64,000 nt of DNA. Source: Bacteriovoracaceae bacterium. GTDB lineage: Bacteria > Bdellovibrionota > Bacteriovoracia > Bacteriovoracales > Bacteriovoracaceae. The stretch covers positions 1-64,000 of the forward strand of contig JAHDBN010000001.1 in the NCBI GenBank assembly GCA_020630335.1. Direction: 5' to 3'. Under the pieces are notes generated by a model. It was not told the DNA's origin. It worked only from the letters and a program-made list of their open reading frames with translations, and did not search any database. A program made the translations under genes and the position numbers. Below, in pieces: positions 33,067 to 35,603 of this stretch. The first letter of the stretch is position 1. Each line of letters starts with the position of its first letter.

Positions 33067-33294
33067 ATGAAGTCAGTAATTATTTTATCTATTATTTTTA
33101 GCTTTAATCTTTTTTCTAACTATCAAGAAGTTAATACTTTAAGAAATGAGATCAACAAAACAACAAATTCAAATTTAAAACTTTATAAATCTACTTATCA
33201 TGACCTATCTAAAGAAGAATTAGAAAAATTAGATGAAAAGTTAAAGTCTATCCACGCGATACTAAAAGAGAATTCAGAAAAAACTAAATATTAA
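33067..33294 (+). CDS. Small exported helical protein
   Basis: A 75-aa protein with a signal peptide (VIILSIIFSFNLFS) and AAGGAGT upstream. The mature part of about 57 residues is a charged helix (SKEELEKLDEKLKSIHAILKEN). Its 3' end overlaps the convergent oxyR gene by 11 bp. No family recognised. Confidence 0.65.
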   Translation: MKSVIILSIIFSFNLFSNYQEVNTLRNEINKTTNSNLKLYKSTYHDLSKEELEKLDEKLKSIHAILKENSEKTKY

Positions 33295-34228
33295 TAACCT
33301 TTTCATCACTTTGCTTCAGAGACTTAACACCTTTGGGTAAGTTAGAAATTATTTGATCCTGCAAGGCCAGAATTATTTCTTCTTTATAAAAAATTCTAGA
33401 AGAAATAATACTTACTTCCCTAACTGGCTTAGGAGATTCAAATTCTTTCAATTGCTCTTTTTTTTCTTTTACTCCAAGCTCTAAAGAGCTTAAGAATGGA
33501 AGTACAGTAAAGCCACCTGACTTTCTTACCAGGTTTTTTAAAACTTCTATACTACCTCCTTTAAATTGAACATTTCCAAAAACAGAAGATTCTTTCTTAA
33601 CTTTACACAAATTAAGGGTCTGAGAAGCAAGACAATGCCCTTCTTCCATTAACCATAATTTTTTTAAATCAAGATCTTTAATTTTTAATTGTTTCTTATT
33701 TTTAAGTTTATGATCTTTAGAGAGAAAAACATTTAAAGGCTCATTAAAAAGAACTCTTTCAATTAACTCATTATCATAAAGAGGAGTTACTAAAATGCCT
33801 GCATCTAACCGATCTTCTTTTAAAAGTTTAACGATCTGATCAGTTTGCAACTCATTAACCTCAAGCTGCACATCTGGGAATTTTCTTGAAAAACTTTCTA
33901 GAAACAAAGGTAGTAGATAAGCTGAAAGTGTAGGTATAATCGCTAAGCGAAATCTTCCAGAAATTTTCTCCGTTGAATCTTTCAACCTCATTAAACTCTC
34001 TGCTTCACTCATTAGTTTTCTAGCATGATCAATAATCATCTTTCCTTTAGTTGTAATAAGTATAGGCTTTTTAGAACGATCAAAAATTATTGTATCAAGC
34101 ATCTCTTCAATTTTTTGAATTTGAATAGACAAGGATGGCTGAGCAATAGCTACTTCTTTAGCTGCTCGTCCAAAATGACGATGATGTGCGAGAGCAAGAA
34201 GATACTTGCATTGATCTAAAGTTATCAT
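33284..34228 (-). CDS. oxyR: Redox-sensing LysR-family regulator OxyR
   Basis: A 314-aa transcription factor. The N-terminal LysR helix-turn-helix (HFGRAAKEVAIAQPSLSIQIQKIEEML) is followed by a substrate/redox domain with EEGHCLASQTLNLC. The cysteines fall at residues 199 and 208, the same numbers and spacing as the peroxide-sensing pair in E. coli OxyR. Disulfide formation there switches on peroxide defence genes. An ATAG-N7-CTAT palindrome sits on the start codon, suggesting autoregulation. No good ribosome-binding site precedes the ATG. No catalase or peroxiredoxin is adjacent. Confidence 0.9.
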   Translation of the reverse strand: MITLDQCKYLLALAHHRHFGRAAKEVAIAQPSLSIQIQKIEEMLDTIIFDRSKKPILITTKGKMIIDHARKLMSEAESLMRLKDSTEKISGRFRLAIIPTLSAYLLPLFLESFSRKFPDVQLEVNELQTDQIVKLLKEDRLDAGILVTPLYDNELIERVLFNEPLNVFLSKDHKLKNKKQLKIKDLDLKKLWLMEEGHCLASQTLNLCKVKKESSVFGNVQFKGGSIEVLKNLVRKSGGFTVLPFLSSLELGVKEKKEQLKEFESPKPVREVSIISSRIFYKEEIILALQDQIISNLPKGVKSLKQSDEKVINI

Positions 34229-34241
34229 AGTTACAAACTAT
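34227..34241. promoter_or_regulatory. Candidate OxyR half-operator on the oxyR start codon
   Basis: The sequence ATAG-TTACAAA-CTAT matches the ATAG-N7-CTAT OxyR half-operator and also the LysR T-N11-A rule. It covers the oxyR start codon. A further ATAG at 34243-34246 is not completed by a CTAT at the right distance. Confidence 0.45.
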
Positions 34242-34257
34242 CATAGCTCTGAGGAAA

Positions 34258-34322
34258 AGTGCCAGGTACTTTTTCTAGAATAAAGTTTAGCACTCTACTG
34301 TTTGCAAAAAGAACTTGGCACT
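34258..34322. repeat. Imperfect inverted repeat upstream of oxyR
   Basis: Arm AGTGCCAGGTACTTTTT (34258-34274) and the reverse complement of 34306-34322 agree at 15 of 17 positions, with a 31-nt loop. The first arm is itself nearly palindromic (AAAAGTGCC/GGTACTTTT). This could be a REP-like element or an RNA hairpin in the oxyR leader. Confidence 0.6.
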
Positions 34323-34370
34323 ACTAATCTTTTTATCATATTCATCAAACCTGCTAACTAATTAAAATCA

Positions 34371-34400
34371 TTGATTTCTTGTTTTTCTTTTAGTTATAAC
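34371..34400 (+). promoter_or_regulatory. Sigma70-type promoter of the candidate ncRNA
   Basis: TTGATT at 34371-34376 and TTATAA at 34394-34399 are separated by exactly 17 bp, in the gene-free stretch between oxyR and ssb. This predicts a transcript starting near 34407 on the plus strand. Confidence 0.55.
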
Positions 34401-34406
34401 TCAATT

Positions 34407-35047
34407 AACTGATAAACTAATAATGATTTTATGCAGAGTGATCCAATATCTATTACATCACTTGTCTAAAAGTTTTAAGAAAACCACGGTTAAGAAAAAT
34501 CAAGAATGGAGTACAAGAAAACGAAATACATCGCCTTTGGGCTTTGTCATCGAAGAGAACGAAATTCAGATTAGAAAACCACGGAAGAAAAAACTACAGA
34601 GAAGTATGCAGGGATGAATCACGCATGTTCGCATTTAGTATTGTTCAAAGTACTAAAAAAAGCACTCACAGAAAAAGACTTCAATCTTTTCATTCGAAAA
34701 TAAGATCTTTATTTTCGAACGGGTGTAAGTGAACATAGTGGACTTTAAGAAATTTTAGTTCATAGGTGATCTGTACCTCAAGGAACACTAAGCTAGTCGA
34801 ATGAGTAAGACTGTAAAAAGTTAGACTCGTGAGTTTGATATGGTTGACTAGTATTAAGCTAGTAACAAACTGACTCAAAAAGCAATGGCCTTATCTTATG
34901 CGGCACGTATATGAAATTGTTGAAAGAGAACAAAGATAAGACTTATGCTTACAAGCAAATGGAGATCACGGATGCAGAAGCATAGCGTTTTCTCAAGACT
35001 AGTTGCAAACTAAAAAAAAGCCACTTCTAAAGAGTGGCTTTTTTTTT
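34407..35047 (+). ncRNA. Candidate structured non-coding RNA of about 640 nt
   Basis: A promoter, several perfect hairpins and a strong terminator bracket this stretch, which has no credible protein gene on either strand (the longest frames are about 60 codons and overlap each other). Perfect stems are an 11-bp one at 34693-34719, 7 bp at 34634-34657, 8 bp pairing 34890-34897 with 34933-34940, and 7 bp pairing 34944-34950 with 34978-34984. No tRNA-like ends, tmRNA tag, RNase P core or GEMM-type c-di-GMP motif is visible. Size and isolation recall the abundant attack-phase RNA of Bdellovibrio, without visible homology. A decayed gene is the alternative. Confidence 0.45.
35012..35047 (+). terminator. 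Strong rho-independent terminator
   Basis: AAAGCCACT and AGTGGCTTT enclose a 7-nt loop, followed by nine T on plus and flanked by A-runs, so it can work on both strands. It ends the candidate ncRNA. Confidence 0.9.
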
Positions 35048-35094
35048 AGTTAAATTTTAAATTTCCAAGAATTGTGACTCTTGAAACATATTTA

Positions 35095-35131
35095 AACTAT
35101 AGGGTGTTCGGAATCGAACATCCTATAGTTT
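35095..35131 (-). terminator. Terminator-like hairpin after ssb
   Basis: Sixteen-base arms (35095-35110 and 35115-35130) pair with one non-Watson-Crick position around the loop GAAT. It begins 14 bp after the ssb stop on the minus strand and is followed there by TTTAAAT. Confidence 0.75.
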
Positions 35132-35144
35132 CATGTTTTATTTT

Positions 35145-35603
35145 CTAGAATGGAATATCATCAGAAGCAAAGCTATCGTCAGCTTTGATGTCATAAGATG
35201 GCATTTCTTGAGATGGATTATTAGCAGCTGGCTGACTACTTGTATTAGTATTCGCTCCAGTTCCAGCGTTAGGATTTCCTCCTAAAAATTGAACTTGATT
35301 ACAAACAATCTCTGTCGTGTATCTCTTGTTTCCATCCTTATCTTCCCACTGACGAGTTTGAAGCTTACCTTCTAAATAAGCTTGTCTTCCTTTTGAAAGA
35401 TATTGATTACATAATTCTGCTTGCTTTCCCCAAACAACAATTCTATGCCATTCGGTTTTTTCATTTTTTTGTCCAGTGTTCTTGTCTGTCCAATTCTCTG
35501 ATGTTGCTACTGAAAAATTACAAACAGCTGATCCATTTGGTGTGTATCTTAATTCTGGTTCTGTCCCTAATCTTCCAAGTAAAGTTACTTTGTTTACACT
35601 CAT
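35145..35603 (-). CDS. ssb: Single-stranded DNA-binding protein
   Basis: A 152-aa SSB with an OB fold ([69 protein letters not shown]). A Gln/Asn/Gly-rich linker leads to the acidic tip DDIPF, the partner-binding tail of replication and repair proteins. It coats single-stranded DNA in replication and recombination. The gene has its own promoter-like element and terminator hairpin, with TAGGAG upstream of the start. Confidence 0.97.

Follow-up and report, generated by a model that had tools for sequence, protein, structure and literature searches.

The interval between oxyR and ssb in a Bacteriovoracaceae genome probably encodes a large structured RNA of an undescribed family

Between oxyR and ssb, a 2.36-Mb draft Bacteriovoracaceae genome (G000) contains a long interval without an apparent gene, which raises the question of what this DNA encodes. 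The window, i.e., the whole stretch of DNA that was analysed, comprises the first 64,000 nucleotides of contig C31 (C31:1-64000). The original prediction was that no credible gene lies in this interval and that it specifies a novel structured RNA, with a decayed gene or element as the alternative. We indeed found no ORF of at least 90 aa in the 916 nt that separate the two genes (34229-35144). Over ~705 kb of G000, this is one of the two longest intra-contig gaps without such an ORF, the other being C31:114165-116908 (2744 nt). For comparison we used a sister species (G001), two further genomes of the same genus (G002 and G003) and 369 genomes of the phylum in all. As argued below, the interval in all probability encodes a large structured RNA, RNA a, which together with a second RNA forms a family not described before. 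RNA a is oriented divergently from oxyR and convergently with ssb (Table 1). Its 5' end could be placed only approximately, at about 34406-34433, and its length is ~620-640 nt.

Table 1. Features of the oxyR-ssb interval and of the operon beside the second RNA. Positions are those of the window unless a locus is named.
Feature	Position	Strand	Basis
RNA a, proposed structured non-coding RNA	34409..35047	+	ortholog in sister species; no Rfam threshold reached; no long ORF
Conserved 5' domain of RNA a	34409..34633	+	~85% identity to sister species
5' module common to RNA b	34421..34461	+	four-copy alignment; pattern search; covariance model R1
Variable middle of RNA a with GACT motifs	34634..34880	+	motif counts; alignment
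Conserved 3' domain of RNA a	34881..35007	+	identity and pair changes versus sister species
3' hairpin ATGC-AGAA-GCAT, common to RNA b	34972..34983	+	only in RNAs a and b within 705 kb of G000
Intrinsic terminator	35012..35047	+	14-bp perfect stem and T run
oxyR flank	33284..34228	-	top NCBIfam match OxyR, below its cut-off; top PDB match OxyR 4x6g
ssb flank	35145..35603	-	TIGR00621, above cut-off
OxyR-type site ATAGTTACAAACTAT at oxyR start	34227..34241	.	perfect match to ATAGNTNNNANCTAT
Exporter-like operon, G000	L121:3697-10164	minus	six genes
Exporter-like operon, G001	L117:6502-13003		six genes

The sister species carries an ortholog of RNA a of ~950 nt, likewise between oxyR and ssb (C116:5153-6130). 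The first ~225 nt of the two RNAs are 84-85% identical and the last ~170 nt 73%, and the middle of the sister RNA has an extra ~300 nt. Measured by segment, identity between the two genomes was 82-87% for the 5' domain of RNA a and for the 5' domain, core and 3' domain of the second RNA (RNA b), or 84-87% with the last of these left out, and 71% for the 3' domain of RNA a. Eight genes compared between the same genomes (Nei-Gojobori) served as a yardstick. Their dS ranged from 1.2 to >3, which is saturated, while pN was 0.10-0.18 and nonsynonymous identity 82-90%. Synonymous sites are saturated and neutral DNA would be unalignable at this distance, yet the ends of the RNA are conserved, which effectively excludes a decaying gene.

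Covariation was assessed by column shuffles of two-sequence alignments (G000/G001); because the family was found in two genomes only, it rests on sequence pairs. The original prediction had tied its proposal to conserved pairing in relatives, and such pairing was present in the two-sequence alignment of the 3' domain of RNA a, where both partners were altered in 9 pairs and a single partner in 10 (shuffle z of -7.2). This domain consists of a CTTATCT/AGATAAG stem around an ATGCGG-CAC-GTAT hairpin, with CTAGT/ACTAG as the closing pair. Examples of compensatory changes include an inner stem that reads TTGTT/AACAA in one species and GTCT/AGAC in the other, as well as TATGCG/CGTATA versus AATGCG/CGTATT. 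Signals were also obtained for two segments of RNA b, namely its U-rich part (z of -7.4, 7 two-sided pair changes) and its 3' domain (z of -4.4, 4 two-sided pair changes). Conservation was too high for informative covariation in the 5' domains of both RNAs and in the core of RNA b. As the 5' domain of RNA a has a single two-sided change and its minus strand scores better, the structure drawn for this domain is uncertain.

Of the signals originally proposed to delimit the RNA, the strong terminator was confirmed: its arms (35012-35025 and 35033-35046) pair perfectly and are followed by T. This terminator is usable in both directions, for RNA a and for the convergent ssb. The proposed promoter held up in part. 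Its elements are present (TTGATT at 34371-34376 and TTATAA at 34394-34399, separated by 17 bp), but they are absent from the sister species, and conservation begins only at ~34409, leaving a possible promoter candidate and not a conserved one. Of the perfect stems reported between promoter and terminator, the 11-bp stem (34693-34703/34709-34719) is perfect and the 8- and 7-bp stems exist, but several matches of 7-8 bp are expected by chance because the DNA is A/T-rich. A FliA promoter was also considered. The published attack-phase consensus is TTAAG-N16-CCGATA (PMC3627812). At 34409 there is a partial CTGATA without a TTAAG box at the proper distance, and with this -35 box missing we did not find a FliA promoter convincing.

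Folding of 34400-35052 gave a z of -7.3 relative to dinucleotide shuffles (n = 20). With the terminator left out, z was -2.8 in RNA a and -5.6 in the sister ortholog, with similar values on the opposite strand. Much of the folding signal thus comes from the terminator, and we regard folding as modest and conservation as strong evidence. Folding does not separate the strands; the assignment of RNA a to the + strand is based on the module that it has in common with RNA b, on the terminator and on the paralog itself.

RNA b was found by querying G000 with the sister sequence, which returned a second match at C31:114361. It occupies ~2.5 kb (C31:114365-116915, or L121:10365-12915) of a 2.7-kb gene-free gap in G000 and 4.3 kb on the minus strand in the sister species (contig C28, L117:2000-6311). 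The gap opens with the same 5' module as RNA a and closes with a terminator beside fusA, which belongs to the rpoC-rpsL-rpsG-fusA cluster; RNA b and fusA are antiparallel. In RNA a, the 5' module consists of the 18-mer TTTTATGCAGAGTGATCC (34427-34444) and a GTGAT/ATCAC hairpin. In both species, the two RNAs share this module and, near the terminator, the 3' hairpin ATGCAG[A/T]AGCAT; their 3' domains also share TGCGGCA/TGCGACA. From 5' to 3', RNA b comprises a conserved domain of ~250 nt, a CACCG array, a conserved core of ~150 nt at 81% identity, a U-rich part, a conserved 3' domain and the terminator, which includes an ATGC-AGTA-GCAT hairpin. The U-rich part contains many tiny hairpins, several of them with C(UUCG)G loops. 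A minus-strand reading of this part was rejected, as it gave a weaker z and almost no one-sided changes that keep pairs. On the + strand, the folding z was better in both the U-rich and 3' parts, and one-sided pair-keeping changes in these segments numbered 12 as opposed to 1 on the minus strand. Given their common ends, RNAs a and b are very probably members of one RNA family.

In the two other species of the genus, which lack RNA b, a different conserved structured element of ~300 nt lies directly after fusA (G002:C49, L198:4265-4570; G003:C6, L199:4456-4749). Read antiparallel to fusA, it has a z of -8.9 and six one-sided changes that keep pairs, versus none on the other strand; it ends in a terminator of its own and has no match in Rfam.

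The 18-mer is exact in both G000 copies and in one copy of the sister species, and the fourth copy has one mismatch. Across 125 genomes of the bacterial family, all other matches to TTTTATGCAGAGTGATCC needed two mismatches, which is the chance level. Within 705 kb of G000, the 5' core and ATGCAG[A/T]AGCAT (which is its own near-complement and was searched on the + strand) were confined to the two gaps. A covariance model of the 5' module (R1, 42 positions) was built from the four copies and by construction scored these at 57-62 bits. Searched over the 369 phylum genomes, R1 detected no fifth copy. The next best match (31 bits, in G022) is due to chance, as it is located within a gene of 230 aa. 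The search with the sister sequence also gave a match in G145, which appears to be coding. Distant blastn searches of phages and plasmids returned no match. Neither did searches of IMG/VR with the 18-mer, the 3' motif of RNA a or the 5' motif of RNA b, and short 15-16-mers had 28-30 matches there, about the chance level. So far, judging from these searches, the RNA family appears to be carried by two species only among the 369 phylum genomes.

No Rfam 15 family reached its threshold for RNA a or for either RNA b locus. At permissive thresholds, matches for RNA a were restricted to the terminator region and are attributed to chance. The scan bears out the original observation that tmRNA, RNase P, 6S, tRNA and GEMM features are absent from the interval; G000 has its tmRNA on C1 and its RNase P RNA (RNaseP_bact_a) at the end of C13. 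The original proposal of a novel structured RNA is well supported by the common locus in the sister species, conservation far beyond the neutral level, the compensatory changes, a paralog whose ends are the same and the lack of an Rfam match.

The middles of the two RNAs differ from their ends. GACT occurs 8 times in RNA a and 18 times in its sister ortholog, against Markov expectations of 2.6 and 5.8, respectively. RNA b has 7 copies of CACCG in G000 and 24 in the sister species, where 0.4-0.6 are expected. The sister array is made up of 92-93-bp units, three repeats of which are 97-98% identical. In the predicted folds, CACCG is mostly unpaired (0.60 versus 0.41 and 0.35 overall), while the GACT sites in RNA a are mostly paired. 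On this evidence the middles can be described as fast-evolving arrays of one short motif, GACT in RNA a and CACCG in RNA b.

The combination of constant ends with an expandable motif array points to a common partner at the ends and a multivalent middle, and hence to a scaffold or sponge. The folded ends would bind a partner common to RNAs a and b, or protect both RNAs. The middle would act as the multivalent scaffold or sponge, its capacity tuned by motif copy number, and each RNA may serve a different ligand. We put this mechanism forward tentatively, as our preferred but speculative reading, and consider it far less probable than the existence of the family itself.

Several other readings of the interval were weighed. 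Decay of a gene or mobile element would be compatible with the lack of an open frame, the variable middle and the occurrence in two species only. Yet the original alternative is countered by the absence of any long frame together with end domains that are conserved like protein sequence despite saturated synonymous sites, and also by the paired compensatory changes, a terminator that is intact in both species and the lack of phage or plasmid matches, and we consider it extremely improbable. A very divergent version of a known RNA (tmRNA, RNase P, 6S, ROOL, GOLLD, OLE or a merRNA-type riboswitch RNA) would suit the length of 620-950 nt, which falls within the ROOL/GOLLD/OLE range. However, no match reached an Rfam gathering score and the weak ones concerned the terminator only, tmRNA and RNase P are encoded elsewhere in G000, and RNA b reaches 4.3 kb, which makes this reading highly improbable as well. 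A third possibility is that RNA a is an OxyR-controlled, OxyS-like regulator, induced by peroxide and base-pairing with mRNAs. In the two species that possess RNA a, it and oxyR are divergent, and a perfect OxyR-type site, one of only two perfect ATAGNTNNNANCTAT matches in 694 kb, lies at the oxyR start; this site is also perfect in G002 and G003 and has one mismatch in the sister species. Moreover, the corresponding interval of G002 and G003 contains dps, a classical OxyR target, and a glyoxalase-like gene. Against this, the site is ~170 bp from the conserved start of RNA a, which is far for direct activation, and it overlaps the oxyR start, which suits autoregulation. The OxyS family of Rfam had no match, and RNA b shares the ends of RNA a without an adjoining oxyR. 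We therefore regard OxyR control as unlikely.

The gene content around the interval varies within the genus. G002 and G003 have no RNA a between oxyR and ssb; there the divergent neighbours of oxyR are the glyoxalase-like gene and dps, in the place that RNA a takes in G000 and G001. An imperfect inverted repeat, AAGTGCCAGGT...ACTTGGCACT (34257-34322), lies between oxyR and RNA a; it is unique in 694 kb and thus no dispersed repeat. A short motif, TGTGACTCT(T)..AAA.ATAT (35073-35093), adjoins the 3' end of ssb and is retained across the four species of this genus (at the same place in L022, L025 and L026) regardless of the DNA beyond.

RNA b has a conspicuous neighbour of its own. In both species, a six-gene exporter-like operon starts ~200 bp away and is transcribed divergently. 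It encodes a 435-aa protein, a 547-aa ABC-exporter-like protein, a 138-aa protein, an HlyD/RND-type adaptor, a 214-aa protein and a MacB-like permease. The 435-aa protein is helical and outer-membrane-like without a family match, and its frame is interrupted in the draft sister genome. The ABC-like membrane protein has weak LssB/PrtD matches to its membrane part only, and no nucleotide-binding domain was recognised in it. That RNAs a and b and this operon form one system, with the RNAs as cargo, regulator or membrane-bound scaffold, would be consistent with the conserved divergent arrangement, with purifying selection on all operon genes (G000 versus G001) and with a narrow distribution. The 435-aa protein was found in two of 39 genomes (G000 and G001) and the ABC-like protein in three of 369, the third being one distant relative at 23% identity; a search of a genome-contig collection with the latter returned the sister genome alone (JAHDHG010000070.1, a Bacteriovoracaceae MAG). 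However, since the genomes are sisters, the co-occurrence amounts to a single evolutionary event that may be coincidental, and is weak evidence of a functional link. RNA a is also distant from the operon, AlphaFold models of two exporter proteins were too poor to interpret (pLDDT of 39 and 36), and we know of no RNA exporter of this kind. A single system is accordingly quite unlikely. Its more specific form, in which the ends would be recognition tags and the arrays payload, is very doubtful, and we are just as sceptical that the complex would anchor the RNAs in the envelope or export them, in a predator conceivably towards prey.

The probable family of large structured RNAs, possibly scaffolds or sponges, can be compared with known systems. 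OxyS, which is 109 nt in E. coli, resembles RNA a in that the latter is divergent from oxyR, but there is no sequence match and OxyS lacks large structured domains. CsrB and RsmZ are similar as an architectural idea, since repeats of a short motif titrate a partner in them. The motifs here are GACT and CACCG, however, and RNAs a and b are much larger. GGA is not enriched (7 observed versus 7.4 expected in RNA a, and observed equal to expected in all four RNAs), so a CsrA sponge is not supported. The predatory relative Bdellovibrio has two large intergenic RNAs, merRNA and APsRNA6 (445 and 655 nt), and no relatives of merRNA were found outside its lineage (PMC3627812). Unlike merRNA, the interval has no Rfam match to the GEMM c-di-GMP aptamer, which leaves a c-di-GMP sponge of the merRNA kind without support. 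The lifestyle-specific role in attack phase that was originally suggested by analogy with Bdellovibrio has so far found no support either, whether from such an aptamer or from a convincing FliA promoter. The abundant 520-nt RNA of L. salivarius, a plasmid-borne RNA of ROOL type (PMC5643018), is likewise long and lineage-restricted, and no similarity to RNAs a and b was found.

The closest parallels in size are the large ornate bacterial RNAs OLE, ROOL and GOLLD, of ~600-800+ nt. In GOLLD, one part is conserved and another variable (PMC12286853), a division also seen here. RNAs a and b fail all of their covariance models (Rfam 15), are chromosomal without a phage or tRNA-island context, and occur as two paralogs per genome. 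Their conservation lies at the two ends, a motif array occupying the middle, and RNA b measures 2.5-4.3 kb. The kind of RNA is known, while the family, its paired design and the size of RNA b are new with respect to Rfam 15 and the literature searched. To our knowledge, few bacterial RNAs of such size and complexity have been described, and OLE, ROOL and GOLLD are all without a settled function. To these, the family would add paralogs within one genome whose ends are retained while their middles are exchanged, as well as a size that reaches 4.3 kb, exceeding 23S rRNA. Because the ends are the same, the arrays differ and their copy number varies between sister species, the scaffold or sponge idea is directly testable.
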